This document shows, piece by piece, positions 1,093-39,621 of a DNA stretch of 64,000 bases. The notes under the pieces were generated by a model, which was not told the DNA's origin, ran no database searches, and saw nothing but the letters and a program-made list of their open reading frames with translations. The DNA comes from Acidimicrobiaceae bacterium (GTDB lineage Bacteria > Actinomycetota > Acidimicrobiia > Acidimicrobiales > RAAP-2), in contig PMOE01000025.1 in the NCBI GenBank assembly GCA_003161575.1, positions 1-64,000 of the forward strand, in the 5' to 3' direction. The stretch's first letter is position 1; each line of letters starts with the position of its first letter. A program made the position numbers and the translations under genes.

Positions 1093-2238
1093 TCACGGCA
1101 TGAGCGTCCGGCCGAGGGCCGCTGCCAGCTCCCTATCCCGCTGGACGAGGGCGTGCGAGTACACCCGGAGCGTAATCGAAGGGTCAGCGTGGCCAAGGCG
1201 ACCGCTCACCGTCACCGGGTCGAAGCCGGCCGCGATGGCCTGGGTTGCCGAGAAGTGGCGGAGCGCGTGGAGGTGACTGTCAACCCCGGCCGCCGCCGCT
1301 ACGCGCCTCGTAAACTTGGTCAGCACGTCGGGTCGGATCGGTTCAGCGCCAACTGGGGACCGGCTGAACACAAACCCATCGGGCAGCACCTCGAAACCAA
1401 GGCTGGCGGCCAGACCGTCGATCGTGACCCGGTGGCGACGCAATGCCTCGATCCCGAGAGCGTCGAGTCCGATGGTACGGACCTGGTGAGTCTTCGTGCC
1501 CTTCTCTCCCCAGCCGCCAGCCGGCGTGTCATAAATCGACCGGGCAATGGCCATGGTGCCAAGAGCAAAGTCAATATCGGGCCATTTGAGAGCACACAGT
1601 TCGCCCCGTCTGGCCCCCGTCAGAGCTGCCAGAAGCAGCAGGACCGCGAAAGTCGGCTCGACCTTCTCGGCCTGTGTAAGGATGGCCTGAACCTCAGCTG
1701 GGCTCGGTGCCTCGATCTCGGCTGCCCTCACGGTGGGCGGCTGAGCCCTCCGAGCGACGTTGCGCTCGACGAGGTCGCCATTCTCGGCGTAGTGAAGTGC
1801 AGCGCCGATTAGAGCGTGCACCCGGCGGACGGTCGTGGCCTTGTTACCCTTGGCGGTCAAATTCCCATAGACGCGGTTGAGATCCCGAGCGGTGAGCTTC
1901 GACAGTCTGACCTTTCCCAGTTCGGGCCGGACGATCTTCTCGGCGATCCTGCGGTACTCCCTCATGGTGGTCGGCGAGCGGCCCAAAGAGTCACAGTGGT
2001 CGAGCCATTCGGTTAGGAGATCCCCGACCGTCTCGGTGCCGCTGGCCGTCTTACCCTTCGAAACGTCGGCCACCATCTTGGCGAGTTCGCGATCAGCCAA
2101 CCGCGACCCCGCGCCGGGTTTCGAATCGGCGGCATGGATCGTCTTCGCGATCTGAATCGGCGAACCGTTGGCTCGTCGGCCGGCGTAGACGCGCAAGCGC
2201 CACACGCCGGGACGGATCTCGGTCTTCGTGCCCTTCAC
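1093..2238 (-). CDS. site-specific tyrosine recombinase (phage-type integrase)
   Basis: A 381-residue integrase. It has an N-terminal arm-binding part (1-65), a SAM-like core-binding domain (about 70-165) and a catalytic domain. Catalytic residues are visible: R210 (TGARRGE), K249, H324 and R327 (HALRHF), H350 (GRLGH) and Y360 (RVYSH). It catalyses integration and excision of the element to its left. The start faces the 3' end of a tRNA-Arg only 68 bp away, the classic position of an integrase beside its att site. The interval holds GTAGTC repeated 11 nt apart, which could be an arm site. All catalytic residues are intact, so it is probably active. Confidence 0.95.
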   Translation of the reverse strand: MKGTKTEIRPGVWRLRVYAGRRANGSPIQIAKTIHAADSKPGAGSRLADRELAKMVADVSKGKTASGTETVGDLLTEWLDHCDSLGRSPTTMREYRRIAEKIVRPELGKVRLSKLTARDLNRVYGNLTAKGNKATTVRRVHALIGAALHYAENGDLVERNVARRAQPPTVRAAEIEAPSPAEVQAILTQAEKVEPTFAVLLLLAALTGARRGELCALKWPDIDFALGTMAIARSIYDTPAGGWGEKGTKTHQVRTIGLDALGIEALRRHRVTIDGLAASLGFEVLPDGFVFSRSPVGAEPIRPDVLTKFTRRVAAAAGVDSHLHALRHFSATQAIAAGFDPVTVSGRLGHADPSITLRVYSHALVQRDRELAAALGRTLMP

Positions 2239-4928: not shown

Positions 4929-5063
4929 TCATCACCGTGCGTGGCCGGCCCGCAGCGCCCGGTGTCCGGCGCCTCCGGGGGACGACCGCCCTGGCGCTCG
5001 TTCGGCTGCGGTCGGGACGCAATTCGCCGCCACCCGCCCACTGAAGGGAACCCGGCGACGCCG

Positions 5064-6083
5064 GTGACGCCGTCTGGGGTATGCAATCGGGGCCGGACGT
5101 CGGTCGACACCGGCGTTCGATTGTCCGGCCGAAGCACCGGGCCGGTCGGCGTCGTGTTGGTCCTGGCGGCGGCAGTGGCACTTGTGGGTGGGGTGGTGGT
5201 ATTCGGACCGTTGGGAGGGAAGACGGCACGCGCGGCAGCCCGGCGGTCCTCCCCACGGGACCAGTCCGTCGCTTCGGACAGTGCTGGGCGGCCCTTGGAC
5301 CCCGCACTCTTCGCCTCAGGCTCCTGCATGGCGTTCGCCCCGAGCACTGGTGATCGGCACCAGACGGTTTTTATCGATGCCGGCCACGGAGGGATCGACC
5401 CGGGCGCAGTCGGTGTGACCGAATCGGGGCAGACGATTTACGAGGCGGATCAGACGCTCCCAGTCGAGCTGGCCGTCCGGACGCTACTGAGGTCCCAGGG
5501 TTACCGGGTAGTCGTGTCGCGAACTCGTGCCTCCACGGTTCTTCGTCTCGGTCCCGGGGACGTGGCAGGCGGCCTTCTCACGGTGCAAGGGGCGCACGAC
5601 GACGTCGCAGCGAGGGACATCTGCGCCAATCTCGCAAAGGCCAATGTGTTGGTCGGGATCTACTTCGACGCAGGCCCATCGACGATAAACGCCGGGAGCA
5701 TCACGGCATACGACACCGACCGATCCTTCTCGGCCAGTAACTTGAGGCTTGCCACCTTGGTGCAGGGTGACGTCCTCGCCCAACTGGACGCTCATGGGTG
5801 GAACATCCCGAACGACGGGGTCGTGTCCGACATCAGTCTCGGCGGACCACCGCTTTCTAGTGCGGCCAGCGCCTACGGCCATCTCCTGTTGATCGGTCCG
5901 GAAATGCCCGGCTACTTCTCGACACCGAGCGAGATGCCCGGTGCCCTCATCGAGCCGCTGTTCATCACCGATCCGTTCGAAGGGACCATTGCGGCGAGCG
6001 CGGCGGGGCAAGAAGCCATCGCCCAGGGGGTAGCGGATGCCGTTGAACAATACCTCCAGCCTCCAGTCAAAAGCCTGCGGTAA
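5064..6083 (+). CDS. membrane-anchored Amidase_3-like protein with altered zinc site
   Basis: A 339-residue protein with one N-terminal membrane helix (about 27-50), a Ser/Arg-rich linker and an N-acetylmuramoyl-L-alanine amidase fold of the Amidase_3 type. The first zinc ligand is H108 in VFIDAGHGGIDPGA, the second is E127 in IYEADQTL, and the C-terminal LIEPLFI has the usual catalytic-type Glu. Where the family has a SIHA third zinc ligand, this protein reads VGIYFDAG, so His is replaced by Tyr. Family members cut the amide between muramic acid and the stem peptide; with a changed metal site this one may be weak, inactive or different. The GTG at 5064 is preferred (about 26 residues before the helix); the GTG at 4941 is also open. 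Confidence 0.8.
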   Translation: MTPSGVCNRGRTSVDTGVRLSGRSTGPVGVVLVLAAAVALVGGVVVFGPLGGKTARAAARRSSPRDQSVASDSAGRPLDPALFASGSCMAFAPSTGDRHQTVFIDAGHGGIDPGAVGVTESGQTIYEADQTLPVELAVRTLLRSQGYRVVVSRTRASTVLRLGPGDVAGGLLTVQGAHDDVAARDICANLAKANVLVGIYFDAGPSTINAGSITAYDTDRSFSASNLRLATLVQGDVLAQLDAHGWNIPNDGVVSDISLGGPPLSSAASAYGHLLLIGPEMPGYFSTPSEMPGALIEPLFITDPFEGTIAASAAGQEAIAQGVADAVEQYLQPPVKSLR

Positions 6084-6290
6084 CGAGCGGAGCAGCGCTG
6101 TGCGTGGCGTCGCACCCCACGGAGCCCAACCCGACAAAGCGAGGCCCTTGGCACGCGGACTGTCCTCGTGTGCGACGCCGCCCGGTTTCGCGGTGACGTA
6201 CTCAGCATCTGCTCAGCCGTCGTGACAAATGATGAGCGGGTGAGCATCGGACCGGGGAGCAGCCGTCGGGCACCGCCGAGGCCTGGTGAG

Positions 6291-7289
6291 ATGGCCGGGA
6301 AGACCGCCTGTCCCATCGTGACAATGTCAACCCTGGCCACGATCGCGGTGGTGCTGACGGTGGTATTGACGTCGTGCGGATCCTCAGCAGTCACGGGACC
6401 CGGGGGCGCTCTCGGGGGCCCTGCGCGCCACGGCGCTGTCCCGTCGATCAGCACGAAAACGGTGCCGCCCACCACCACATCCACGCTGCCGCCCACCACC
6501 ACCACCACGACGACTGAGCAGCCCGGTTGGACCGTGGTCAGTACGGAGAAGATCGGTGTCGCCATCGACGAGCGCACCGTCACCGAGCCAAACGGGGGAC
6601 TCGTCACGGTGATCCGGTTCCGCTCGGGATTCGTGCGCTTCGGACTTCACGTCGGCAGTCAGGACCCCCCGGTCGGCTCCGCCACGATCCCCTCTGACGG
6701 CAGATCGTCGATCGGACCCGATGAGGCGCCAGTCCTTCTGGCCGCGTTCAACGGCGGCTTCAAGATGGCCTCGGGTGCCGGTGGGTTCGAGCTCGACGGG
6801 CAGATCCTTAGCCCGCTCCTTCCGGGAATGGCCAGCCTGGTCATCGACACCGACGGTTCAGCCCGCATTGGTGTCTGGGGACTGGGTCTGCCCCTTCCCG
6901 GTGAGCAGGTGGCGAGCGTCCGCCAGAATCTGGCGCCGCTGGTCACGGGCGGCGTGACGAGCCCGTCAGTGGGTGACCCCGCGTCTTGGGGGTCCATGTT
7001 GGGCCCAGGCCCGGCGGTTCCGCGCAGTGGGCTGGGCCAAGACACCCAAGGGGACATCCTCTACGCCGCCGGAATGTCGCTCGTCCCGGCCGACCTGGCG
7101 ACGGCGCTGGTCGAGGCCGGTGCCGTCAACGCCATGGAGCTCGACATCAACCCTGAATGGGTGCAGGCGGACGCCGCCCCAACCGCCGGGACCCCACTTT
7201 CGGCGTTGATTCCCGGGCAGAACAGACCGGCCGACCAGTACGAGTTGGGCTGGACCCGAGACTTCATCACCGTGTTGGCCACCCACTGA
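6291..7289 (+). CDS. lipoprotein phosphodiester glycosidase (NAGPA family)
   Basis: A 332-residue protein with an N-terminal lipobox (VVLTSC, Cys29), a Pro/Thr-rich linker and a NAGPA (phosphodiester glycosidase) domain. The domain shows AAFNGGFKMASG, VASVRQNL, GDILYAAG and AVNAMELDINPEW, the family's conserved strands and acidic/Asn cluster. NAGPA enzymes hydrolyse sugar-phosphodiester links; here the substrate is likely an envelope glycan or teichoic-type polymer, by inference. The ATG at 6291 is chosen because GAGG lies 9 nt upstream and Lys4 gives the signal its charge. It converges with the next gene (4 nt between the stops). A clear paralogue lies at 8146-9396. Confidence 0.8.
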   Translation: MAGKTACPIVTMSTLATIAVVLTVVLTSCGSSAVTGPGGALGGPARHGAVPSISTKTVPPTTTSTLPPTTTTTTTEQPGWTVVSTEKIGVAIDERTVTEPNGGLVTVIRFRSGFVRFGLHVGSQDPPVGSATIPSDGRSSIGPDEAPVLLAAFNGGFKMASGAGGFELDGQILSPLLPGMASLVIDTDGSARIGVWGLGLPLPGEQVASVRQNLAPLVTGGVTSPSVGDPASWGSMLGPGPAVPRSGLGQDTQGDILYAAGMSLVPADLATALVEAGAVNAMELDINPEWVQADAAPTAGTPLSALIPGQNRPADQYELGWTRDFITVLATH

Positions 7290-7293
7290 CTTC

Positions 7294-8088
7294 TCAGCAG
7301 GTGGACGACGGGGGGGAGGCACCCGGACCGGCTTCGGGATCGAGGACGATCCCGGCGTCGGAGGAACGAAGGATGGCTCCGAGGTGCACGACGTACCACA
7401 CCCCCCGCCACGAGATCAGCGATGCGATGCCGATGGAGAGGGTCTGCCCCCCTTCTTCATAAACGAGCCGCGAATTGGCCACCTCGAAGTACCCGACGCT
7501 GTTGTCGCAGACCCCCGGTGGCACCCAGTGCGCGAACTGAGACGGGACATCCACACCAACCAGGGTGGCCCCCGACACCCCCGCTCCGAGGAGGGAGTTC
7601 GCCGCATCTACATCCAGTGCGAAGTCGTGTACCAGCCGATTCTGGTAGTCACCCGAGGCATTGGCGATCGTCTTCAACTGGAGATAGGCGCCCTCGGGGA
7701 AATATGAGGGCATGGCGTCGGCGACCGAGTGGTGGGTGATGCCATCCCACAGCGAGGTCATCTCGGACTGGAACTGGGCGGTGTCGCTGGCCGGTAAAGC
7801 CGCGGTCTGGGGCAATGAGCCGGGATCGACCGTGGTCGAGGTGGACGGTGGCGAGGTCGTCGGCGCCGTAGTGGCCGGTGCCGGCGCAGGGGGACGGACG
7901 CCCCGGTAGCTGGTGGACGTGACGGCCAGCTGTCGAGAGGGATTTGGGCGGCGGCTCGGGTGGTGCGCCTGCCACACCACGGCTCCAACCGACAAGCCGG
8001 CCAGCAGCACCGCCACCGTGGTCGCCAGTCGGACGAAGCGCCGGTTCACCCGCCGATACCGCGACCGGGGCTCGGGACACCCGAACAC
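7294..8088 (-). CDS. membrane-anchored protein of unknown function
   Basis: A 264-residue protein. It has a basic N-terminus, one transmembrane helix (about 20-42), a Pro/Thr/Ser-rich linker (50-95), then a folded extracellular domain of about 165 residues with alternating strands and helices, ending in a SSTC tail. No family is recognised. Its tail-anchor-plus-linker design matches the neighbouring wall-associated proteins. It lies downstream of, and 58 nt from, the phosphodiester glycosidase at 8146-9396 and could share its transcript. GTG at 8046 (VNRRFVRLATT) is an alternative start. Confidence 0.6.
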   Translation of the reverse strand: MFGCPEPRSRYRRVNRRFVRLATTVAVLLAGLSVGAVVWQAHHPSRRPNPSRQLAVTSTSYRGVRPPAPAPATTAPTTSPPSTSTTVDPGSLPQTAALPASDTAQFQSEMTSLWDGITHHSVADAMPSYFPEGAYLQLKTIANASGDYQNRLVHDFALDVDAANSLLGAGVSGATLVGVDVPSQFAHWVPPGVCDNSVGYFEVANSRLVYEEGGQTLSIGIASLISWRGVWYVVHLGAILRSSDAGIVLDPEAGPGASPPSSTC

Positions 8089-8145: not shown

Positions 8146-9396
8146 TCAGCGAGCTGACATGGTGAAGAAGTCTCGGGCCCACCAGCTCTCGAAATAGCGA
8201 TCGGTGCCCCCTGTCATTCCCGAGACCAGCAGGGTGCCGTTGGCTGCAGTCGCCGGGCCACCGGGCGTCGCCGGGGCGTACGTCGCCATGTTTACCCAGT
8301 CGGTGTTGATGTCGAGCTCCATGGCCCGCACGGCTCCCGCATCGACCAGCAGGTTTGCCAGGTCGGTGACGTTGAGGCCGGGGCCACCCACGTAGACCAA
8401 CGCCCCATTGGCGGTGACACCCACCCCTGAGCGCCAGACGTACACGGCGTTGCCGAGCGTGTAACCCCATTTCGTGGTGTCGGTGGCGGTAAGGCCCGCC
8501 GCGGGCTTCCCACCGTCTACCAGCAGATCAAGGTTCTGACGCACCGAGACGACCTGCGAGGTCATAGTCACGTCGCGGCCCCACTCCCCAATTGCAGTGT
8601 CGCCGTTCTTGTAAATGACGAACGACGCCGCGCCGCGAACCAGGGGGACAACGGCGCGCCCGTCGGTGTAGTAACCCCCGTTGCCGTTGGACATAAGGAA
8701 GCCGGCATTGAACGCCGACACCAGTGACGTCGAGGCGGACGGTGAGATGGGTGCCGTGTGGGTGTACGGACCACCGCCGGGAATGATGCTGCCGGAGTAC
8801 AACGTGGCGCGCAATAACTTGGTGTCCATCCAGGCCACCCCGACCACCTCGCTGGTGTGGGTGGCGTCGGGACGCAGATGCGTCACGTACACCGCTGGGA
8901 TCCCCCCGATCAGGCGCCCCGCCGGCGCCCATTGCCCCTCCCCGGGGATCGACGGGCTAGCCACCGGTTGCATGGAGGCCGGAGTTGGGAGATGTGCCGG
9001 AGCCGACACCGCCTCGGTGGTAGGCGTCGTGCGCGGCACCTCTATGGCCCCCTTCGGCGGCGTGCCCCCGACCGGTGGCGCGTGGTGGCTGTACCACTCG
9101 TTCTCGGACCAATTCACAATGGTGGCCGCGCCGTGCCCGCGGGCCCATTCGGCCAGGCGGGCTCCGATCGAACTCCCGTAGCCGGGGTTGGTCAGGGTGG
9201 TGCCGAGCGACACGGCCAGCCACACCAAAAAGACGGTCAGAGCGAGCAGCACCGCGGCCCGGATCCGGCGCCACCGAAGCGTGCGCCGGGCACGCCGACG
9301 GTGTTTGGTCCGTGGCCGGTGTGCTGGTTCCGAACGCGGGCCCACGTCGGGATCGGAGTCCAGATCGGGGAGGGATATGGAGGGTCGGGCGGACAT
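8146..9396 (-). CDS. membrane-anchored phosphodiester glycosidase (NAGPA family)
   Basis: A 416-residue protein: basic cytoplasmic tail, one membrane helix (about 46-68), a linker region and a C-terminal NAGPA domain. Conserved pieces are VSAFNAGFLMSNGNGG, VVSVRQNLDLLVDGG, GALVYVGG and AVRAMELDINTDW, parallel to the lipoprotein at 6291-7289. It probably cleaves a sugar phosphodiester on the outer face of the membrane. It starts 7 nt after the dprE2 stop, so it reads as the fourth gene of the ubiA-dprE1-dprE2 operon, tying it to arabinose-donor or arabinan metabolism. ATG at 9396 is chosen; the frame is open to 9501 but that would overlap dprE2. Confidence 0.8.
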   Translation of the reverse strand: MSARPSISLPDLDSDPDVGPRSEPAHRPRTKHRRRARRTLRWRRIRAAVLLALTVFLVWLAVSLGTTLTNPGYGSSIGARLAEWARGHGAATIVNWSENEWYSHHAPPVGGTPPKGAIEVPRTTPTTEAVSAPAHLPTPASMQPVASPSIPGEGQWAPAGRLIGGIPAVYVTHLRPDATHTSEVVGVAWMDTKLLRATLYSGSIIPGGGPYTHTAPISPSASTSLVSAFNAGFLMSNGNGGYYTDGRAVVPLVRGAASFVIYKNGDTAIGEWGRDVTMTSQVVSVRQNLDLLVDGGKPAAGLTATDTTKWGYTLGNAVYVWRSGVGVTANGALVYVGGPGLNVTDLANLLVDAGAVRAMELDINTDWVNMATYAPATPGGPATAANGTLLVSGMTGGTDRYFESWWARDFFTMSAR

Positions 9397-9403
9397 CAGC
9401 GCA

Positions 9404-10168
9404 TCACCCCGGAACCCTCCGCCACAGCACCCTTGGGAGGTGGACGAGAGCCAAGAACACCCACCGGACGGTCGATGGCACCCAGACCACCAACCGACCA
9501 CCGCCCAACGCGGCGACCACCGCCGAGGCCACGTCGTCGGGTCCGGTCGCGAACGGAGCGGGATCTCGACCCTTGGTCATCTTCGTCGTGACGAACCCGG
9601 GCCGGATCACCTGCACCACCACCCCCGAGTCCCGCAGGGACTCGGCGAGGCCGAGGGCAAAGGCGTCGAGCCCGGCCTTGGCCGATCCATACGTGTAGTT
9701 GGATCGTCGCACCCGCACGCCGGCCACCGACGACAGCACCAACACTCGGCCGTGCCCCTGGCGGCGCAAGCGCGCCGCCGCGGCTGTAAGTGCGGTAGCC
9801 GGCCAGGTGAAATTAACGGTGACCATTTCGGCCGTGCGGTCGGGGTCCCCCTCGTCGGCCATCTGCTCACCGAGTTGCCCCACCGCCATGAGCACCAGGT
9901 CGACGTCTGGGCCCGCGGAAGCGAAGCACTCGTCCACGCACGCCGCGGCACCACCGGCGGCGCGGGCGTCGAATGTCACCGTGGGCGCCAGCGTGGCTCC
10001 AGCCTCGATGGTGGCGGCGGCGGCCGTAGCCAGCGCGATCGCGTCACGCCCGGCCAGCACCACGGTGCGGCAACCTTCTTGGGCCAACCGCCGCACGATG
10101 GTCGACGCGATCTCAGAGGTGCCCCCGAGCACCACCATTGACTGAGGGACCCCGAACGCGTTGTTCAT
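9404..10168 (-). CDS. dprE2: decaprenylphospho-keto-ribose 2'-reductase
   Basis: A 254-residue short-chain dehydrogenase. It has a nucleotide-binding VLGGTSEIAS start (the GGxSEI form typical of DprE2), LSSVAG and a YTYGSAKAG catalytic Tyr/Lys. With DprE1 it epimerises decaprenyl-phospho-ribose to decaprenyl-phospho-arabinose by reducing the 2'-keto intermediate with NAD(P)H. Its ATG overlaps the dprE1 stop by 4 nt (ATGA), and the pairing of the two is diagnostic. The C-terminus has a hydrophobic, Arg-rich stretch that may touch the membrane. Confidence 0.9.
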   Translation of the reverse strand: MNNAFGVPQSMVVLGGTSEIASTIVRRLAQEGCRTVVLAGRDAIALATAAAATIEAGATLAPTVTFDARAAGGAAACVDECFASAGPDVDLVLMAVGQLGEQMADEGDPDRTAEMVTVNFTWPATALTAAAARLRRQGHGRVLVLSSVAGVRVRRSNYTYGSAKAGLDAFALGLAESLRDSGVVVQVIRPGFVTTKMTKGRDPAPFATGPDDVASAVVAALGGGRLVVWVPSTVRWVFLALVHLPRVLWRRVPG

Positions 10169-11652
10169 CTCACTCCCCCGGCAAATTGCAGGCGGCGCGA
10201 TAGGTCAGAACGGAGCACGCCCTCGGGGTCTACTCGGCGCCGGGCGGAGTCCAACTCGTCCAGCCGCGGGTACATCGCGTGCAGGGCGTCGGGCGAAAGG
10301 CGAGAGTCCTTGGCCAGGTACACCCGCCCGCCCGCCTCCATCACGACATCGTCGAGGCGACGGAGCAGACCCGGGAGGCCCGGCGGGCCGATCGGGAAGT
10401 CGAGCGCAAGTGTCCACCCCTCCATGGGGAACGACAGCGGACCGGGATTTCCTGCCCCGAAGCGTTTCAGCACCGCCAGGAATGACGGAACCCCTGACGC
10501 ACCGATCGTATCGACCGTTGCGCGAAGGGCCTCTGCGTCGCCCACGACGAATTGGTACTGCACGAATCCGAGCGGTCCGTACAGCAGATTCCAGTCGGCT
10601 ATGAAGTCGAGCGGGTAGAAATACGACTCGATTGTCGACAACTCACCGGATTGATTGCGCGGCGACCGGCGGAACCACAACTCGTTGAACCATGCGATGG
10701 TGGTGGCGTTCAGCAGCCCTCGGGGAGCCGGCACTGGTACCCGGAGCACCGGGCGTCGGGGGAGCCGGACCGGTTCGGTTCCCCGGGGGAGGGCGGCCCG
10801 CGGCGCGTGGTCGCCCCGCGTCAGTACTGCCCGTCCCCGCCGCGAGGTTCGGGCCGCACAATCCAGCCATGCGACCGAGTAGCGGTAGGACATGTCCGAC
10901 TGATCCATGCGGGCCATGACGCCGTCGAGATCGTCGAACCGTTCGGTGTCGACCACCATCCACGATGTATCGACCGCCAGCAGCTGCACGATCGCCTCGG
11001 TGACGATTCCAGTGAGACCCAAGCCGCCGGCGGTGGCCCAAAACAGTGTCGGGTCGTCGTGGGGCCCGACTAGGTGGACACCGGTCGGTGTCGCCAGGGT
11101 AACCGACGTCACGTGCTGGCAGAAGCTCCCGTCTCGATGGTGGTTCTTCCCGTGCACATCTGCGGCAATCGCCCCGCCGACGGTCACCTGCCGAGTTCCC
11201 GGCGACACCGGGATGAACCAGCCCGACGGCAGCACCTCGCAGATGAGACGGTGGAGGTCGACACCCGCTCCCACAACCACCGACCCACCGGACCCGATGG
11301 CACCGATCCGATCGAGGTGCTCGGTGCTCACCACGGTTCCTCCCGCGCATTGCGCGGCGTCCCCGTAGCTGCGTCCGAGGCCTCGAGGGATCACGCCGCC
11401 CCGGCCGGTGTGACCATCAGGGCCAGCCCCCTGCCCCCGGGCGTCGAACACTCCCAGAAGGGCGGCCACCTCGTCGGGGCCGCGGGGAGCAACCACGTGA
11501 GCCGTGGTCGGCGCCGTCCGTCCCCAACCACGCAGGAGGCGTGCTTCGGCGGGGGTTGGCTCCTCGGAGCGGTGGTTGTTGGTCTCGAGGGCCGGCTCGG
11601 GCCTCAACCCAACGATGTCGCCGCCGGATACCCCAGGAGCTGTGGCCTTCAC
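10165..11652 (-). CDS. dprE1: decaprenylphospho-ribose 2'-oxidase (DprE1)
   Basis: A 495-residue FAD-binding oxidase. The PCMH/VAO-type FAD domain shows PRGLGRSYGDAA (90-100), VHGKNHHRDGSF (166-177, the flavin-contacting His region) and FWATAGGLGLTG (204-215). The C-terminal part has YFYPLDFIADW and YLAKDSR. It oxidises decaprenyl-phospho-ribose to the 2'-keto sugar. At the place of the mycobacterial Cys387 (GWNxCVDFPI) this protein has Ala416 (GWTLALDFPI). GTG at 11652 is chosen because it forms a GTGA overlap with the ubiA stop; an earlier GTG at 11685 is possible. Confidence 0.92.
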   Translation of the reverse strand: MKATAPGVSGGDIVGLRPEPALETNNHRSEEPTPAEARLLRGWGRTAPTTAHVVAPRGPDEVAALLGVFDARGQGAGPDGHTGRGGVIPRGLGRSYGDAAQCAGGTVVSTEHLDRIGAIGSGGSVVVGAGVDLHRLICEVLPSGWFIPVSPGTRQVTVGGAIAADVHGKNHHRDGSFCQHVTSVTLATPTGVHLVGPHDDPTLFWATAGGLGLTGIVTEAIVQLLAVDTSWMVVDTERFDDLDGVMARMDQSDMSYRYSVAWLDCAARTSRRGRAVLTRGDHAPRAALPRGTEPVRLPRRPVLRVPVPAPRGLLNATTIAWFNELWFRRSPRNQSGELSTIESYFYPLDFIADWNLLYGPLGFVQYQFVVGDAEALRATVDTIGASGVPSFLAVLKRFGAGNPGPLSFPMEGWTLALDFPIGPPGLPGLLRRLDDVVMEAGGRVYLAKDSRLSPDALHAMYPRLDELDSARRRVDPEGVLRSDLSRRLQFAGGVR

Positions 11653-12665
11653 CCGTAGAGACCGACCGTGAACAGCACCAGCCACGCTAGGCCGAGCACC
11701 CCCAGAAGCCGGTCGTGGAACACCAATGTCTCGGGAGCTCCTCCCTTGCCTGCGTCGAGAAGTTGGAGGACATAGAGCACTCCGATCACCACCGGTACCA
11801 CGGTGAGGCCGATCAGGGCCGAACGGTGCCCCGAGCGCGATACCAAGCCGGTGCGGTCCAAGGCCCAGAGGCAGTAGGCGGTCACGGTGACGGTGGCCGT
11901 CATGGTTAAGGCGGATCGCAGGAACGTCGTCGTGTATTGACCTAGGGCGTCGCGGTGGTGGACGCGCAGCTCACCCAGATCGTGGTGCTCTGCTGTCCTC
12001 TTGCCGACGGTCATGAACAACGCACCGAAAGACGTCACCACGAGGAACCAGTTCGAGAGGGGCACGTGCGTCGCGACACCCCCTGCGATGGCCCGCAGCA
12101 CGAACCCTGCGGCGACAGCTGCCAGTTCGATCACCGCGATGTGCTTGAGCCACAATGAGTACGAGACGCTGACGGCGACGTAGGCGCCGATCACCAGAGC
12201 CAGCTCCCAGCCCGCATCCAACCACCCTGCCGTCACGGCCAGGGCCATGAGTGTGACTCCGGTGGTCACCGCAATCCGCGGCGAGAGCTTGCCCGACGCC
12301 ACCGGCCGGTTCCGCTTCCGTGGGTGGTTGCGATCGCTTTCCGCGTCGAGGCAATCGTTCACCAGATAGGTTCCCGAGGCAGCGGCGCAGAACGCTGCGA
12401 ACGCCCCCGCTGCGGCCAACACCTTCGAGGGCTCATGGAGGACTCCCGCCGCCGCCGGGGCTACGAAGACCAAGATGTTCTTGATCCACTGGAGCGGACG
12501 AGCGCCGCGCAGCAGGCTCCGGCCGGTCGGCCACCGAGCACCGGAGTTGGAGGGTATGGAGCCGGTCGAGGGGGACTCGTCGCCGAATGCACCCGCGGCA
12601 GACTCAACGGACGGGTGAGCTACCACAGGGCGACGGTAGCAATCCGACCCCCTCGAGCGGGCCAC
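11649..12665 (-). CDS. ubiA: decaprenyl-phosphate phosphoribosyltransferase
   Basis: A 338-residue UbiA-superfamily prenyltransferase with about eight membrane helices. The first Asp-rich motif is NDCLDAESDRNHP (103-115), and a second conserved stretch KRTAEHHDLGE follows the fifth helix. It transfers phosphoribose from PRPP to decaprenyl phosphate, the first committed step to decaprenyl-phospho-arabinose. It heads the operon with dprE1 and dprE2. The GTG start at 12665 gives a 50-residue polar leader; GTG at 12626 would shorten it and is equally plausible. Confidence 0.88.
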   Translation of the reverse strand: MARSRGSDCYRRPVVAHPSVESAAGAFGDESPSTGSIPSNSGARWPTGRSLLRGARPLQWIKNILVFVAPAAAGVLHEPSKVLAAAGAFAAFCAAASGTYLVNDCLDAESDRNHPRKRNRPVASGKLSPRIAVTTGVTLMALAVTAGWLDAGWELALVIGAYVAVSVSYSLWLKHIAVIELAAVAAGFVLRAIAGGVATHVPLSNWFLVVTSFGALFMTVGKRTAEHHDLGELRVHHRDALGQYTTTFLRSALTMTATVTVTAYCLWALDRTGLVSRSGHRSALIGLTVVPVVIGVLYVLQLLDAGKGGAPETLVFHDRLLGVLGLAWLVLFTVGLYG

Positions 12666-13170
12666 CGACGCTCATGGAAATCTCAGACTCCGCGAACCGC
12701 TGCCGGGTGGCTTACTGACATCGGGCTTCCCCCGAGCCCAGCGTGGAGACTCACGACGCAGTCAACACTCGCCCACCGCTCTCTCGGATCAGGATTTCGC
12801 TCCGACCCAGCGTGATCCTCGCCTGCATGGCGTGGCCGGTGCATCACCTTGTCGCCGATTGGACTGTCTTCGGACCCGCCATCGTCGTCGCCGCAGGAGA
12901 TCGCGGTCGTCACCGGCAACGTCGTCGCGCCGGTGACTCGAGCGCAGAAGAGGTCCTTCTCGATGAGCAACTCTGCCCAGCGTTCGCCGAATACCAGTCA
13001 CCCGGGCATCGCCCCGCCCGCCACGATCAGCTCTCAGCGACTCCTCAGGCAAGGGATCACTGCCAAAAGTGCTGGTCACCCGCTCCTTTTTCCCCGAAGT
13101 CGGGACCCACGCGGGACCCGAGCCCCTGCTCTTAGCTCGGTCTTACCGCCGTCCGCGACCATCGAGGGTA
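12666..13170. other. divergent intergenic region
   Basis: About 500 bp between the minus-strand arabinose-donor operon and the plus-strand redox operon. It must carry both promoters. Open frames here lack start signals and family features. No clear -10/-35 pair or repeat is seen. Confidence 0.5.
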
Positions 13171-13533
13171 ATGAGCTTTGTCACTGTGCCTCCCCCTGGT
13201 ACCACCCACCGCCACGACGCTGCTGGCCGCGACCGCGCTGTTCTTGGTGTCCGTCGAGTGAGTGCAATGATGGCTGCCGCTGCTGCTGTCGCCACCGGCG
13301 TCCTCATCGGCGTAGCTGCCCACGACACGCCCGCCCACCACGCGGCTTCCCCCTCGAGTGCCGGGCAGGGCAACGGAGCGTCCGGCGGAGGCGGTCAGTC
13401 CGGCTCCATTTCTTCGAATCCATCGGGGTCGAGCGCTCCCTCGTCTGCGGCCTCGGGCGGAACGTTCTCCCAGGCTCCGTCTACTCCTGTCCCGACCAGT
13501 CAAACCCCGCAGGTCGTTACGGGCCAGACGTGA
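13171..13533 (+). CDS. membrane anchor with Ser/Gly/Pro-rich tail, no catalytic domain
   Basis: A 120-residue protein: polar N-terminus, one membrane helix (about 33-52), then a low-complexity Ser/Gly/Pro/Thr tail to the end. This architecture matches the anchor and linker of actinobacterial FMN-binding-domain proteins that ApbE flavinylates, but the FMN-binding domain and its flavinylation motif (DxxSGAT type) are absent. ATG at 13171 is chosen for GAGGG just upstream. The stop overlaps the ApbE start (GTGA), so the two are coupled. It may be a shortened FMN carrier or a scaffold; its role is unknown. Confidence 0.6.
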   Translation: MSFVTVPPPGTTHRHDAAGRDRAVLGVRRVSAMMAAAAAVATGVLIGVAAHDTPAHHAASPSSAGQGNGASGGGGQSGSISSNPSGSSAPSSAASGGTFSQAPSTPVPTSQTPQVVTGQT

Positions 13534-14486
13534 CCGAGGTCGGGTTCACCACCTGGAACGTCTGGGGAACGACGGTCGCGATCGGCACCGAACCGTCGAG
13601 CGAAGCGCTACCGGCCGAAGCGATCGTCCGGCGGGAGATCGCATCGTTCGACGCGGCATGCAACCGGTTCCGGCCGGACTCAGAGCTGAGCCGCGTCAAC
13701 GGGGCCCGGGGCGAACGGGTCGTCGTGAGCTCGCTCTTTGTCCATGCCTTGCAGGTGGCGCTCGACGCGGCGGAGCGCAGCGGCGGCGCGGTCGACCCCA
13801 CGGTCGGAAACGCTCTCGAGGCGCTCGGCTATGACCGCGACTACGACGTGATCGCCGCCGATGAGCCCTCCACCCCGCTCTCGGGCGCCCCGGCAGCGGT
13901 CGCTGGGTGGCGCAGTGTGACACTCGATCCAGTGGCCCGCACCGTGCAGCTCCCCCCTGGGGTCCACCTCGACCTCGGCGCCACCGCCAAGGCGCTGTGC
14001 GTGGACATGGCGGCGACCGCGGTCAGCCGTCAACTCGGAGTCGGGGTGTTAGTCGACGTCGGCGGCGACCTGGCCATGTCCGGGGCGCCCCCGGCCGACG
14101 GTTGGCGTGTATCGGTGATGGAGAACTCCCGCACGCCAGACCTCTCCGACGACTGCGTCGTCGCTGTCCGTGGGGGCGGCATGGCCAGCTCCGGCACGAG
14201 CGCTCGGATCTGGTCGCGCTCGGGTCGGTCGTTTCACCACATCATCGACCCGCGCACCGGATGGCCCAGCTGGCCGGTGTGGTCACTTGTCACGGTTGCC
14301 GCCGGCTCGTGTGTCGACGCCAACGTTGCCTCGACGGCAGCGGTGGTGTGGGGCGAGGATGGCCCGTTCGAGCTGGCTCAGCTTGGTCTCGCGGGGCGCC
14401 TTGTCCACCGCGACGGCTCGGTCATGACGGTGGGCGGGTGGCCGGACGCCGCGCCGGCCCCCGCTATTGAGAAGCGAGGCGCTTGA
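13530..14486 (+). CDS. apbE: FMN:protein flavinyltransferase (ApbE family)
   Basis: A 318-residue ApbE protein. Typical motifs in order: an FxTxWxVWGTT start, ASFDAACNRFRPDSELSRVN, GAVDPTVGNALEALGYD, LDLGATAKALCVD, VLVDVGGDLAMSG, FHHIIDPRTGWP and ASTAAVVWG. ApbE enzymes attach FMN from FAD to Thr/Ser of partner proteins in a Mg2+-dependent way. No signal peptide is seen, although many homologues are exported. It lies in a five-gene coupled operon with a haem membrane protein, a NuoF-like protein and a ferredoxin, suggesting electron export to a flavinylated acceptor. The acceptor is not obvious in the window. Confidence 0.9.
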   Translation: MTEVGFTTWNVWGTTVAIGTEPSSEALPAEAIVRREIASFDAACNRFRPDSELSRVNGARGERVVVSSLFVHALQVALDAAERSGGAVDPTVGNALEALGYDRDYDVIAADEPSTPLSGAPAAVAGWRSVTLDPVARTVQLPPGVHLDLGATAKALCVDMAATAVSRQLGVGVLVDVGGDLAMSGAPPADGWRVSVMENSRTPDLSDDCVVAVRGGGMASSGTSARIWSRSGRSFHHIIDPRTGWPSWPVWSLVTVAAGSCVDANVASTAAVVWGEDGPFELAQLGLAGRLVHRDGSVMTVGGWPDAAPAPAIEKRGA

Positions 14487-15169
14487 TGCTCGCCTCCACG
14501 TCGCCCGTGTTGTGGTATGCGACCAGGGCGACGGGCACGGTCGCAATGGTGCTGCTCACTGCGACAGTCATCCTCGGGATCTTGACCACCACGCGTGCGG
14601 CGACCTCCGCCGTTCCCCGGTTCGCCATCAGCGATCTTCACCGCCGGATCGCTCTATTGTCCGTTGTCTTCCTCGGCCTGCACATTCTCACCGCGGTCAT
14701 CGATACCTATGTGCCGATTGGCTGGGCGGCCGCTGTCGTACCCTTCACCTCGACCTACCGTCCTTTTTGGATCGGACTCGGCGCAATCGCCTTTGACCTT
14801 TTGCTCGCGGTCATAGCGACGAGCCTGCTGCGCCAGCGGATCAGCGTGCGGGCGTTCCGGGGGGTGCATTGGCTGGTCTATGCCTCGTGGCCGGTGGCCA
14901 TGATCCACGGGATCGGTACCGGCACCGACCTGCGGTTCGGCTGGATGCAGATTCTCGTCGCAGCCTGCATTGTCTCGGTATTGGCGGCTCTGGCTTGGCG
15001 GATCCGAGCCCACCCCTACCCCGGCGGTCACCGCACCGCGGTGCCGCCGTCCGGCGTTCCGGCGACCGGTCACGCCGCGGTCGGGCGGCCGGCTACTGCC
15101 ACATCGGTGGCCGCCCGCCCCGAAGTGCGCCGTGTCAGCCGGGCTGAGCCGAGGGAGACCCGTTCATGA
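14486..15169 (+). CDS. ferric-reductase-like haem membrane protein
   Basis: A 227-residue protein with six membrane helices and a Pro/Ala-rich cytoplasmic tail. Conserved His residues appear in DLHRR, GLHIL, GVHWL and MIHGI, placed two and two on opposite helices as in the ferric reductase-like (YedZ/FRD) fold that binds b-type haem. It likely passes electrons from the NuoF-like protein and ferredoxin encoded downstream across the membrane. ATG at 14486 overlaps the apbE stop by 1 nt (TGATG) with GAGG upstream; the TTG at 14483 is less likely. Confidence 0.8.
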   Translation: MLASTSPVLWYATRATGTVAMVLLTATVILGILTTTRAATSAVPRFAISDLHRRIALLSVVFLGLHILTAVIDTYVPIGWAAAVVPFTSTYRPFWIGLGAIAFDLLLAVIATSLLRQRISVRAFRGVHWLVYASWPVAMIHGIGTGTDLRFGWMQILVAACIVSVLAALAWRIRAHPYPGGHRTAVPPSGVPATGHAAVGRPATATSVAARPEVRRVSRAEPRETRS

Positions 15170-16467
15170 CCACCCTCGAGGCATCGCCCGTGACCATCCG
15201 ACTGCTGAGCGGAATCACCGACCCCGCCGACCGGCTCGACCTCAACGGGCACGAGGCGGTCCACGGCTCGCTCCGGTTGCCGGGGCGCCGGGACGCCGGC
15301 TGGTCGAACCGTTTCATTGCCGCACTCGACGAGTCCGGCCTGACCGGGCGTGGCGGTGCGGGATTCCCGACCGCTCAGAAACTCCAGACCATCCGCGCCC
15401 AGCGCCGCCGGCCGGTGGTCGTGGTGAACGCCATGGAGGGGGAACCGGCCAGCGGCAAGGACCACTTCTTGGCCACCCGGGTCCCCCACCTCGTGCTCGA
15501 TGGCGCGGCGCTGATGGCTCGTTCCCTCGACGCTTCTGCCGTGCAGATCTGCGTGGCGCGAGGATCTCGCGTCGCCGCCCGCTCGTTCGCCGCCGCGGTC
15601 GCCGAACGGGCGCGGGCGGGCATGAGAGAGGCGCCCTTCGAAGTTGTCCAGCCCCCTGCCCGCTACGTCGCCGGCGAGGAGTCGGCCCTCGCCAACTGGC
15701 TTGACGGCGGGGAAAGCCTGCCGCTGTTCCGCCCAGACCGCCCGGCGTTCCCGCGGGTCAGTGGGCGCCCGGCGCTGGTGGACAACGCCGAGACGCTGGC
15801 TCAGGTCGCCCTCATCGCCCGCTACGGCCCCGAGTGGTTTCGGGGAGTGGGCACCCAAGAGGCGCCGGGGACGACGCTGGTCACCGTATCGGGCGCGGTA
15901 CGGGCGCCGGGCATTGTCGAGGTTGCGCTCGGGACTCCGGTCTGGTCGGTGCTGGCCATGGCCGGTGTCGTCGAGCGGCCGGCCGGCGTGCTGCTCGGCG
16001 GCTACGGCGGTACGTGGCTGGCCGGTGCTGATGTGGCCACACCCTATGACCCCGCTTCCCTCGGTGCGGTCGGTTGCACCACCGGCGTCGGTGTCATGGT
16101 GGCCCTCCCGACCGACGGGTGCGGCCTGGCGGAGACGGCGCGCATCGCCCGCTGGATGGCTGGGGAAAGTGCGGGCCAGTGTGGCCCTTGCGTGTTCGGG
16201 CTCCCCACCGTGGCCGACGACCTTTCGCTCCTGGCGTACGGCCGGACCCGCCGTCGTGACATTGACCGGCTCTGGGCACGGCTCGGGACCATTGATGGAC
16301 GAGGCGCATGCCGCCATCCCGACGGCGTCGTACGGTTGGTCAAAAGCGCCATTTCCGCCTTCGCGGCCGACTTGGACCACCACTTGCACCATGGACCCTG
16401 CCGCGGCGCCAACCAGCAAAGTGTCTTGGCCTTCCCACCGGTGGGGGAGGTCGTCGAATGGCGATAG
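15166..16467 (+). CDS. NuoF-like NADH-dependent flavoprotein, altered Fe-S site
   Basis: A 433-residue protein with the complex I 51-kDa (NuoF) layout. It has an RGGAGFPT FMN/NADH loop (about 65-72), an NAMEGEP motif, RYVAGEESAL, an SLBB domain and a C-terminal Fe-S helix bundle. The canonical cluster motif ESCGxCxPC...C is here ESAGQCGPC plus GRGACRHP: the first Cys is Ala336, leaving C339, C342 and C382. The protein probably oxidises NAD(P)H and feeds the adjacent ferredoxin or haem protein; NuoE and NuoG partners are absent. The start overlaps the preceding stop (ATGA). Confidence 0.85.
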   Translation: MTTLEASPVTIRLLSGITDPADRLDLNGHEAVHGSLRLPGRRDAGWSNRFIAALDESGLTGRGGAGFPTAQKLQTIRAQRRRPVVVVNAMEGEPASGKDHFLATRVPHLVLDGAALMARSLDASAVQICVARGSRVAARSFAAAVAERARAGMREAPFEVVQPPARYVAGEESALANWLDGGESLPLFRPDRPAFPRVSGRPALVDNAETLAQVALIARYGPEWFRGVGTQEAPGTTLVTVSGAVRAPGIVEVALGTPVWSVLAMAGVVERPAGVLLGGYGGTWLAGADVATPYDPASLGAVGCTTGVGVMVALPTDGCGLAETARIARWMAGESAGQCGPCVFGLPTVADDLSLLAYGRTRRRDIDRLWARLGTIDGRGACRHPDGVVRLVKSAISAFAADLDHHLHHGPCRGANQQSVLAFPPVGEVVEWR

Positions 16468-16709: not shown

Positions 16710-16823
16710 GAGGGTCTTCGCGGTGAATGAAGGCCCGCGACTCCATGGTGGTGTCCGAAACGACCCCGACCCCGCGGGTTCGTATTCAGCATTCTCTCAG
16801 AAACCGTGCGGGACACTGCTGGC

Positions 16824-18179
16824 ATGGCTCAGAAAACCCGCGCTGTAGCGGGCCCGAAGGGTGGCAATAGTCCAGCCCGATCGAGTGGAGGGAAGGAAGG
16901 CGGGGCACCGCGACGGGCCCGCCAGTGGCTGTTCTTATCGCCACCGCCCGGAGCGCTCACCATGTCGGGGTGGGCCCTCCTGCCACTGCGCGCCTTTCTC
17001 GGTTTCACGTTCTGCTTCGCCGGCCTGCAGAAGCTGGCCAACCCGAACTTCTTCAATGCCAACAGCCCGGCGGGGATCCAGGCACAGCTGATCGCCGCGA
17101 CACGGCTGAGCCCACTGCACCCGTTGCTCGGGCATCTCCTGCATTTCTCCACGCTCATTGGTGTACTCATCGCCCTCGGCGAGTTGGCCATTGGGCTCGG
17201 CACCCTGCTCGGTCTGTGGGTCCGGATCGCAGCGGTCGCCGGCGCGATCCTCTCGTTCTCGTTGTTCCTCACGGTGAGCTACCACTCGTCGCCGTACTAC
17301 ACCGGGGCCGATATCGTCTTTCTCTTCGCGTGGATCCCCCTCATCCTGGCCGGCTCCGGTGGCGTCCTCTCCTTCGACGCGGTCATCGACTCGTGGACCA
17401 GACGTGAGGCGCGGCTGGGACCACCTGCCGTGGTGCCGGTCAAGTTCGAGCTGATCCAGCAGATCTGCGGCCAGTACGACCGGGGGGCCTGCAAACAGCG
17501 CGCCGGTGCGCTCTGCGACGTCGGCCCGTGCCCGTTTTTGGCCGAACACCACGAGAGCCTGCTGCACCGCAGGCCCGATGACGTCGACCGGCGGGCGCTC
17601 GTGCTCGGCAGTGTGGCCGTCGGTACGGCGGCGGCGGTCGGCCTGTTCGGTGCGGGCGCGGCGGCGTTACTTGGTCGCGCGATTGGGGGTGCCAAGTCAC
17701 CGGGCGGCGGGACAGTGACCCTGGCTCCGAAAAAGCCCGGTGCGGTGACCACCACTGCGCCCTCATCGGCGACGTCGACGACCCAGACCCCCGCCACCAC
17801 CGCGCCGACCGGCGGTGCCCCCACGGCGACCGCGCCCCCCGTGGCAACCACCACAGCGCCCAAGCCGGCGGGGACCGCCATCGGGGCCGCCCGCGATGTG
17901 CCAGTCGGTGGCGCGGCCCAGTTCCAGGACCCGAGCAGCGGGGACCCGGGCGTCGTACTCCAGCCCTCCCGAGGTCAATTCGTGGCTTTCGACGCGATCT
18001 GCCCCCATGCCGGATGCACCGTCGGTTACTCCTCGGCCGCCGACCTGTTGGTGTGCCCCTGCCATGGCTCAGAGTTCAACCCGAGCAACGGTGCGGTCGA
18101 GACGGGACCCGCCCAAAGGGGGCTTTCATCGATCCAGATCGCCCTCGGCTCAGACGGCCAACTCTACGTCGACGGTTGA
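16824..18179 (+). CDS. DoxX-like membrane domain fused to Rieske [2Fe-2S] domain
   Basis: A 451-residue fusion. The N-terminal half is a DoxX/DoxD-like four-helix quinone-linked domain (about 45-200: LRAFLGFTFCFAGLQKL, then GELAIGLGTLLG). A Cys-containing stretch follows (GQYDRGACKQR..CDVGPCPF), then a further membrane helix (about 262-285), a Thr/Pro/Ala linker (300-350) and a Rieske domain. Cluster ligands are C393/H395 and C411/H414, with C398 and C413 as the structural disulfide (CPHAGC...CPCHGS). It probably links a quinol pool to an extracytoplasmic acceptor. ATG at 16824 is used; GTG at 16806 is possible. It follows the ferredoxin by about 110 nt. Confidence 0.85.
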   Translation: MAQKTRAVAGPKGGNSPARSSGGKEGGAPRRARQWLFLSPPPGALTMSGWALLPLRAFLGFTFCFAGLQKLANPNFFNANSPAGIQAQLIAATRLSPLHPLLGHLLHFSTLIGVLIALGELAIGLGTLLGLWVRIAAVAGAILSFSLFLTVSYHSSPYYTGADIVFLFAWIPLILAGSGGVLSFDAVIDSWTRREARLGPPAVVPVKFELIQQICGQYDRGACKQRAGALCDVGPCPFLAEHHESLLHRRPDDVDRRALVLGSVAVGTAAAVGLFGAGAAALLGRAIGGAKSPGGGTVTLAPKKPGAVTTTAPSSATSTTQTPATTAPTGGAPTATAPPVATTTAPKPAGTAIGAARDVPVGGAAQFQDPSSGDPGVVLQPSRGQFVAFDAICPHAGCTVGYSSAADLLVCPCHGSEFNPSNGAVETGPAQRGLSSIQIALGSDGQLYVDG

Positions 18180-37978: not shown

Positions 37979-38164
37979 GTGTGGTGGGACCCCTGGAACA
38001 AGCCGCGGGTGCGGTATGAGATCGCTGAGACCAGACGTGAGGTTACCGACCAGTCCGACGTCTGGTGGGGAAGCATCGACCGCATTCCGGGTGGAAGGGT
38101 GTTGTTGTTCTTGGCCGGCGCGGGGGCCATCGGCCTCCTCATCTCTACCGTCGTTGTGAGCTGA
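37979..38164 (+). CDS. 61-residue Trp-rich membrane protein between wzx- and wzy-like genes
   Basis: A tiny protein: a polar, Trp-rich N-terminus (MWWDPW..., a second WW near residue 30) and one C-terminal helix (about 41-60). GTG start; its TGA overlaps the polymerase ATG by 1 nt, so the two are coupled. No family is recognised. It may assist the flippase or polymerase or serve as a translational leader. Confidence 0.6.
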   Translation: MWWDPWNKPRVRYEIAETRREVTDQSDVWWGSIDRIPGGRVLLFLAGAGAIGLLISTVVVS

Positions 38165-39621
38165 TGACCGTCGACACCATGTTGGGCCTACTGCTCCAGC
38201 TGCTCGCTTTGCTTCTATTGTTCGCAAAGCTCGGGCGCAGTTGGTATCGCCACCTCGGTGGCATCTTCATTGTGATGGCTGTCCTATACCACGGGGTCGG
38301 AGAGATCTTTGTGTCTCTGTTCCCTGGTTATAACCCCTATCGGCCGCTGTTCGACACCAGCTACGTGGGGCCTTTCGTCTTGCTGATCAGTACGGCCATC
38401 TTGCTCTTTACCGTCGCTTACGTGTCAGCAGTGGGGCGACGAACCAGGGCGCCGATACCTTCGGACACCCCCGAAGCGGCAATCACCAAGCGTGTCTTCA
38501 ACTACAAGTTGATGGCTCTCATCACGCTCCCGCTGTTGCTCCTCACCCTGAGTGGTCAAGGATACGGATCAAATGGCGGCGTACAAGGGGGCGTCGGCGC
38601 GACCCTGGGGCTCTCGGAACAGTTTTTCATCCTCGGCGCAGTGCTCTCGGGCTTCGGGTTCGTGATGCGATTCGGGAGCCGGTGGATTGTCCCAGTCCTG
38701 ATTGTCCAATCAGTCCTGCTAGCACTCGTCGGGGAACGGCTGGCCATCGTCATCGGCGCCGTGATGTTGATCTACGTGCTGTCGCAGTTCGGAATGAAGC
38801 CGAAGCGCAGGGGTGCGGTGATCGGGTTGGTGGTGCTCGTGCTTTTCGCTTGGGCGATCACCGCTGCCCGGGGCATTGAAGGGAGGTTCAATACAACCTC
38901 TGGATCGAGTGTTCGGCTGACGTTCTTGACGACCGGCTCAGAGAATCTATTCTCCCCCACGACCTGGCATCAATTCGCCGTTACAGCCGGATACCGCCTC
39001 GACGGGAACAGCTACGGGGCAATGGAACTAGAGGCCCTTCGCTCGGGGGCACATCCAGTGGGACTAACGCCGTTGAAGAACGATGTCTTGTTGGCCGTAC
39101 CCAGCTTCCTTAATCCCAACAAGGACTCCGGGGATCCCGGAAACCGAGTGGAGAAGACCTATGTCGAAGAGCACCTCCCCATCCCTGAACTTTTGATTGG
39201 CGATACGGGAACCTATCTCGACATCTTGCCGACCCAGCTCGGAACCTTGCTTGGAATCTTGGGGGAATCGGGGATGCTCGTGGCGGCGTTCTTCTTGGGA
39301 TTGGCGTTCGCCGCATTGGATCGATGGGTTCGCCGCGACCTCGGACCAGTTCGGATGCTCGTATCCCTCGGGGTGCTCTATTGCGTCCTCAACTACGAAG
39401 CATCATGGGATACCTGGACCACGACCCTGCGGGGGATTGTGGTCCTCGTGGTCTTGATTGGTGGTCTCTTGGGGATTCGTCGATTGGCTCTGAGCGCAAA
39501 TCGACAGGTGGTTGCCTCGGGTCGGTTACCAGTTGACCGTAACCTCGCAGATGCGGGTCGTTCTCGCGGCCGGCGTCCGAGGCGCGACGAGGATGATGTA
39601 GTCGCAAGCGACCGCGCCTAA
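38164..39621 (+). CDS. O-antigen-type polysaccharide polymerase (Wzy-like)
   Basis: A 485-residue protein with 10-12 membrane helices. A large hydrophilic loop of about 110 residues (about 250-360: TTSGSSVRLTFLTTG... GDTGTYLDILPTQLG) precedes the last helices, the layout of Wzy polymerases. Sequence motifs in this family are weak, so the call rests on topology and its place after the flippase. It would join repeat units outside the membrane. ATG at 38164 overlaps the small membrane protein; the frame is open upstream to 38065. Confidence 0.75.
   Translation: MTVDTMLGLLLQLLALLLLFAKLGRSWYRHLGGIFIVMAVLYHGVGEIFVSLFPGYNPYRPLFDTSYVGPFVLLISTAILLFTVAYVSAVGRRTRAPIPSDTPEAAITKRVFNYKLMALITLPLLLLTLSGQGYGSNGGVQGGVGATLGLSEQFFILGAVLSGFGFVMRFGSRWIVPVLIVQSVLLALVGERLAIVIGAVMLIYVLSQFGMKPKRRGAVIGLVVLVLFAWAITAARGIEGRFNTTSGSSVRLTFLTTGSENLFSPTTWHQFAVTAGYRLDGNSYGAMELEALRSGAHPVGLTPLKNDVLLAVPSFLNPNKDSGDPGNRVEKTYVEEHLPIPELLIGDTGTYLDILPTQLGTLLGILGESGMLVAAFFLGLAFAALDRWVRRDLGPVRMLVSLGVLYCVLNYEASWDTWTTTLRGIVVLVVLIGGLLGIRRLALSANRQVVASGRLPVDRNLADAGRSRGRRPRRDEDDVVASDRA

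Follow-up and report, generated by a model that had tools for sequence, protein, structure and literature searches.

The window analysed here, a stretch of 64,000 nucleotides from an Acidimicrobiaceae bacterium, carries a genuine operon for the synthesis of polyprenyl-phosphoryl-arabinose (decaprenyl-phospho-arabinose, DPA), well past chance, in a host that appears to lie outside the mycolate-bearing actinobacteria. We consider it probable, at roughly 60%, that the donor is exported and used on an envelope glycan other than arabinogalactan, and that a protein of the NAGPA fold encoded directly behind the operon cleaves a sugar-1-phosphodiester. What sets the operon apart is the conservation of this NAGPA-fold neighbour combined with the lack of the canonical arabinogalactan enzymes. 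The partner gene (9396-8146) lies within the region covered by the original prediction, a note made from the sequence alone, and is absent from its text. The genes in question are as follows.

11649 to 12665, minus strand: ubiA, first gene of the operon, polyprenyl-phosphate phosphoribosyltransferase (DPPR synthase, Rv3806c-like; NF008978, Pfam UbiA)
10165 to 11652, minus strand: dprE1, decaprenylphosphoryl-ribose 2'-oxidase, with a GTG start at 11652 (NF053785, PDB 4aut)
9404 to 10168, minus strand: dprE2, decaprenylphosphoryl-2-keto-ribose reductase, with an ATG start (NF053786)
8146 to 9396, minus strand: putatively membrane-anchored NAGPA-fold protein of the phosphodiester glycosidase family (PF09992, AlphaFold2 model, structure comparison, conserved neighbourhood)

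The coupling of the first three genes by 4-nt overlaps, which had been predicted, can be read directly: GTGA at 11652-11649 joins ubiA and dprE1 (an exact overlap provided that GTG 11652 is the dprE1 start), and ATGA at 10168-10165 is an exact overlap of dprE1 and dprE2. All three products exceed the curated cut-offs of their NCBIfam equivalog models, UbiA with 327 bits against NF008978 (DPPR synthase; cut-off 207), DprE1 with 534 bits against NF053785 (cut-off 500) and DprE2 with 268.5 bits against NF053786 (cut-off 250). Solved DprE1 structures (PDB 4aut) align with the window DprE1 over 450 residues (E = 3e-112). In an alignment of the window DprE1, 80 relatives and Mycobacterium smegmatis DprE1 (82 rows in all), the equivalents of His132 and Lys418 are invariant, and the equivalent of Cys387, the position attacked by benzothiazinones, holds Ala in 69 of the 82 rows, that of the window among them. 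The identities of the three enzymes can be taken from these matches, and their activities are predicted from orthology.

The window belongs to a draft metagenome-assembled genome (MAG) of 3.53 Mb in 98 contigs, estimated to be 91% complete. In a scan of the collection, the closest relatives of its DprE1 (51-61% identity) come mostly from MAGs labelled Acidimicrobiaceae, Acidimicrobiales or as unspecified actinomycetes, and in a DprE1 tree it clusters with 15 of these loci with a support of 0.997, far from M. smegmatis DprE1. Taxonomically, Acidimicrobiaceae stands within Acidimicrobiia, Actinomycetota. These relationships, along with the absent arabinogalactan domains described below, support placing the host outside the mycolate group, as had been proposed. 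No mycolate-type Pfam match was found among the scanned open reading frames (ORFs) of the window, mycolate-specific families not having been searched across the genome. Arabinogalactan families were likewise not seen among the other scanned ORFs, in keeping with the earlier statement that the rest of the window carries neither kind of gene.

DprE1 is widely distributed. In a sample of 148 Acidimicrobiia genomes, it exceeds the curated cut-off in 61 and gives a match above about 120 bits in 65, a count that includes one fragmented DprE1; in a sample of the phylum weighted towards the relatives of the window, it passes the cut-off in 41 of 296 genomes. The collection scan also revealed relatives in Streptosporangiaceae, Nocardiopsis, Propionibacteriaceae, cyanobacteria, planctomycetes and proteobacteria. 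DprE-type arabinofuranose donors have been described in Gram-negative glycans and in pilin glycosylation, and in several bacteria extracytoplasmic GT-C glycosyltransferases use polyprenyl-phospho-pentofuranoses (PMC11127046). The donor pathway outside mycolate bacteria is already known, and the host operon by itself adds one more member to a known kind. Thus, of the novelty originally seen in the operon, the placement holds, but its force is reduced because such pathways have been published and DprE1 is common across actinobacteria. Four cyanobacterial and proteobacterial DprE1 loci (L049, L078, L080 and L082, L-numbers being labels of the loci compared around DprE1 relatives) have a recurrent neighbour in common (cluster 24), which in L049 is a HAD phosphatase fused to a membrane domain of the lysyl-phosphatidylglycerol-synthase type; this fusion is a candidate for the missing phosphoribose phosphatase plus a membrane step.

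The fourth gene begins at 9396, 7 nt past the dprE2 stop. Its ORF (8146-9501) matches PF09992 with 32.9 bits (gathering score 25, E = 9e-8), the only Pfam-level match to this family in the host genome. The AlphaFold2 model (mean pLDDT 82.7) consists of one long N-terminal helix, a helical segment and the NAGPA-fold domain; the long helix would be a single membrane anchor, leaving the domain extracytoplasmic. Foldseek pairs the model with 3ohg, a DUF2233 protein (E = 3e-11), and VIA-align gives a Z of 20.1 to 3ohg and of 14.5-15.6 to vertebrate NAGPA. Strongly conserved motifs of the subfamily include N-A/G-GF, GGY, RQNL, RS-x-x-G, LDIN-W and RDF. The Asn, Arg and Asp positions aligned with NAGPA are invariant in the subfamily, with the Pfam match ending at 137/169 and the motif after the Asp differing. 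NAGPA-fold enzymes free phosphodiester-linked sugars (PMC12419801), and a literature search found no paper linking NAGPA-type proteins to DprE genes. A second member of the family lies convergent with the operon.

6168 to 7289, plus strand: divergent NAGPA-fold paralogue whose signal (LTSCG) resembles that of a lipoprotein, recognized by the family profile

It scores 166.6 bits (E = 8e-49) against the family profile and has the RQNL, RSGLG and MELDIN motifs in common with it. A gene for an N-acetylmuramoyl-L-alanine amidase (Amidase_3; 4941-6083, plus strand) adjoins the paralogue as a further envelope gene near the operon.

Is the NAGPA-fold gene a partner of the operon or only its neighbour? 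At least four arrangements place it next to the DPA operon. Many Acidimicrobiia, along with L032, L040 and L071, have it downstream in convergent orientation; in L005, L022, L042 (Terrabacter aerolatus), L062 and L066 it precedes ubiA on the same strand; L044 and L057 have it immediately upstream of dprE1 and show no ubiA match close by; and in the window it lies downstream, in the same direction as the operon. In L044 the gene lies within an ORF of 949 amino acids, which was considered as a fusion with a second domain and set aside: the N-terminal extra part has no Pfam family or UbiA match and appears to be upstream sequence that happens to stay open in that frame. When the class sample was searched with a profile of the subfamily (A1), 36 of the 148 genomes were found to encode a member, 35 of which also have DprE1, with 30 genomes having DprE1 only, 1 the NAGPA-fold protein only and 82 neither (Fisher p = 7e-15). 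The association persists when the window's own family is dropped (p = 2e-10) and when some 35 small genomes of one family, a number that is estimated, are dropped as well (p = 2e-7). Within the window's own family, the gene lies 2.0-4.4 kb from dprE1 in all 12 sampled genomes, in one of them as a fragment. Outside it, the two genes are mostly apart or on separate contigs and yet co-occur in 23 of 24 genomes, so that the signal there comes from joint presence and not from adjacency. The other conserved neighbours at acidimicrobial loci (UvrD helicase, sucCD, purH, guaA, IMPDH and folD) were considered as clues to the glycan and rejected, since they are housekeeping genes and therefore uninformative.

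These data bear on the strongest alternative, that the operon makes DPA while the NAGPA-fold neighbour is functionally unrelated and owes its nearness to inherited gene order. In its favour, many of the linked loci are from related Acidimicrobiia in one conserved housekeeping context, and most DprE1 loci of Streptosporangiales and Nocardiopsis have no NAGPA-fold gene beside them. However, the four arrangements, which extend to Terrabacter and unclassified actinobacteria, and the co-occurrence outside the family even where the genes are non-adjacent make mere inheritance of gene order unlikely, and we prefer a functional partnership.

What does the host do with the donor? Family-by-family domain searches of the genome, with Corynebacterium glutamicum as the positive control in each case, gave no match to the EmbC C-terminal domain (PF14896), AftA_N (PF12250) or GlfT2_N (PF17994). 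The original prediction had called for a search for EmbC/AftA-type enzymes, and it thus came out negative. Since the assembly is a draft, any one of these absences taken alone may be a gap; with three separate ones, each against a positive control, the presence of a complete arabinogalactan set is unlikely. The further possibility of a typical Mycobacteriales genome with the complete set is ruled out by the DprE1 relatives and these absent domains. The genome does encode one AftD-like protein (PF11847, 289.7 bits, G000:C52:18877-20880) on a contig other than that of the operon, in an ORF of 1958 amino acids with carbohydrate-binding domains of the F5/8C type, as well as two PMT-like GT-C genes and three GtrA-type proteins, which are candidate flippases. 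In the class sample, AftD and DprE1 occur together in 50 genomes, DprE1 only in 15, AftD only in 8 and neither in 75 (Fisher p = 1e-17), and of the 12 genomes sampled from the window's own family, 7 have no AftD. Four actinobacterial loci (L029, L031, L045 and L070) have AftD-like arabinofuranosyltransferase genes less than 10 kb from dprE1; in L029 Pfam confirmed the PF11847 match, and the other three were assigned by sequence clustering with it. That the donor may feed a different polymer is a reasonable suggestion, to be qualified by the AftD-like protein of the genome and by the polysaccharide cluster of the window described below.

A genuine arabinogalactan-like wall polymer might nevertheless be built by diverged enzymes that domain searches miss. 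The AftD-like enzyme and the 91% completeness would allow it, and Pseudonocardiaceae have mycolate-free wall polymers that contain arabinose and galactose; given that all three domains are without a match where the controls are positive, we regard this as quite unlikely and retain a glycan other than canonical arabinogalactan as the preferred acceptor.

The process we propose would run as follows. UbiA would transfer ribose-5-phosphate from phosphoribosyl pyrophosphate onto polyprenyl phosphate, a phosphatase encoded away from the operon would strip the 5'-phosphate, and DprE1 and DprE2 would invert C2 to yield polyprenyl-phospho-arabinofuranose. The donor would then be flipped outward, with the three GtrA-type proteins as candidates, and be used by GT-C enzymes, the best candidate for which is the AftD-like protein on contig C52; the acceptor would be an envelope glycan other than canonical arabinogalactan. 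The NAGPA-fold protein, with one transmembrane helix and an extracytoplasmic domain, most likely cleaves a sugar-1-phosphodiester. It may cleave DPA itself, thereby recycling the carrier and limiting the donor, or it may cleave a sugar-1-phosphate anchor tying an arabinosylated polymer to the wall, for trimming or release. DPA belongs to the arabinose-1-phosphodiesters, and in mycobacteria the wall anchor is an N-acetylglucosamine-1-phosphodiester. Because both are sugar-1-phosphodiesters, an extracytoplasmic NAGPA-fold enzyme could hydrolyse DPA, trim a polymer anchor or transfer arabinose. From fold, topology and genetic linkage we favour a hydrolytic role. The narrower proposal, in which the protein acts on polyprenyl-phospho-arabinose itself, either as a transferase or as a phosphodiesterase dedicated to DPA, outside the GT-C family, is offered tentatively and is rather unlikely to hold.

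The transferase half of that proposal, an extracellular arabinosyltransferase acting in place of GT-C enzymes, has some appeal: ten sampled genomes with DprE1 and the NAGPA-fold protein show no AftD-like match, the fold works on sugar-1-phosphodiesters, which is the bond class of DPA, and the topology suggested by the model is extracytoplasmic. However, we know of no NAGPA-fold transferase, other GT-C enzymes are not excluded in those ten genomes, and the host itself carries two PMT-like GT-C genes and AftD, so we hold a transferase to be improbable and keep to hydrolysis. That the product is instead polyprenyl-phospho-ribose or another pentose, conceivable as other bacteria have ribose, xylose and arabinose pathways that draw on UbiA products (PMC11127046), is barely credible with DprE1 and DprE2 both over their equivalog cut-offs and encoded by overlapping genes.

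Several observations weigh against the proposed process as a whole. At 91% completeness, any of the gene absences may be an assembly gap, and the operon contains no phosphatase or flippase gene. The PF09992 match stops at profile position 137/169 and the C-terminal motif of the NAGPA-fold protein is LDIN, unlike the canonical NAGPA motif, which we take to be LDGGGS; hydrolase activity may have been lost for these two reasons. The Fisher tests of co-occurrence treat genomes as independent and so overstate significance, owing to shared ancestry. Finally, for one described Acidimicrobiia isolate, the dprE1 status of which was unchecked, the whole-cell sugars are reported to be rhamnose, ribose, mannose and galactose, with arabinose not among them (PMC12263773).

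Compared with the mycobacterial DPA pathway (Rv3806c, Rv3807c, DprE1 Rv3790 and DprE2 Rv3791), UbiA, DprE1 and DprE2 are alike at the equivalog level and the catalytic positions of DprE1 are kept, whereas the host has one overlapping three-gene operon followed by the NAGPA-fold gene, no domain match for embC, aftA or glfT2, and Ala in place of the benzothiazinone-reactive Cys. The Gram-negative three-component pentofuranose systems (Citrobacter O1/O2, GT136) likewise involve a UbiA-type phosphoribosyltransferase, epimerisation on the lipid carrier and extracytoplasmic use by a GT-C enzyme (PMC11127046), but the host is actinobacterial and its operon has no HAD phosphatase domain. Neither a MATE flippase nor a GT136-type GT-C enzyme was found among the immediate neighbours of the operon, GT136 not having been searched genome-wide. 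Arabinosylation of Pseudomonas type IV pilin also uses a DprE-type D-arabinofuranose donor outside mycolate bacteria (PMC11127046), whereas no pilin gene was seen adjoining the host operon. The NAGPA/DUF2233 phosphodiester glycosidases (the vertebrate uncovering enzyme; BACOVA_00430, 3ohg) have the same fold as the host protein, which differs in its predicted single transmembrane anchor, a conserved membrane-proximal helical segment and the RQNL and LDIN-W motifs, with only 16-19% identity.

DprE1 ranks among the foremost drug targets in tuberculosis, and what it makes is commonly presented as a hallmark of the mycolate envelope. In this case the complete donor operon occurs in soil and water actinobacteria, of a class whose envelopes have been little studied, and the principal arabinogalactan enzymes known so far do not accompany it. 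With Ala at the Cys387 position, the host DprE1 would presumably escape covalent benzothiazinone inhibitors. The NAGPA-fold partner provides a concrete, testable lead on the use or recycling of lipid-linked arabinose; direct use of polyprenyl-phospho-arabinose by it, if true, would amount to non-GT-C handling of lipid-linked sugars in non-mycolate actinobacteria.

Two further features of the window may touch on the operon.

7294 to 8088, minus strand: secreted or single-transmembrane protein with a hydrophobic N-terminus, about 57 nt after the NAGPA-fold gene
23167 to 43759, strand not assigned: polysaccharide cluster of the Wzx/Wzy type, recognized by Pfam matches, about 10 kb from the operon

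The former, a possible fifth gene of the operon, has no Pfam family and no counterpart in the related loci. The cluster includes genes for a PNPT initiating transferase, a UDP-GlcNAc 2-epimerase, a heparinase II/III-like protein, three GT4 enzymes, Wzx, a Wzz/BY-kinase, DUF4012 and a multi-transmembrane Wzy-like ORF (38065-39621), the last called from hydrophobicity and context only; on proximity alone, it could possibly supply the acceptor glycan for arabinose. It also holds a fused zinc-dehydrogenase/MocA oxidoreductase, and the GC content falls to about 0.60 at 32-40 kb in this region.

Elsewhere, a tight set of three plus-strand genes (12849-16467), the ends of which overlap by 4 nt at 14483-14486 and 15166-15169, encodes an ApbE flavin transferase, a ferric-reductase-like membrane protein and a NuoF-like SLBB protein and looks like a flavin-dependent electron-transfer module. 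A DoxX/DoxD membrane domain is fused to a Rieske [2Fe-2S] domain at 16806-18179 (plus strand), and a phage-type tyrosine integrase (1093-2238, minus strand) lies close to the left end of the window.

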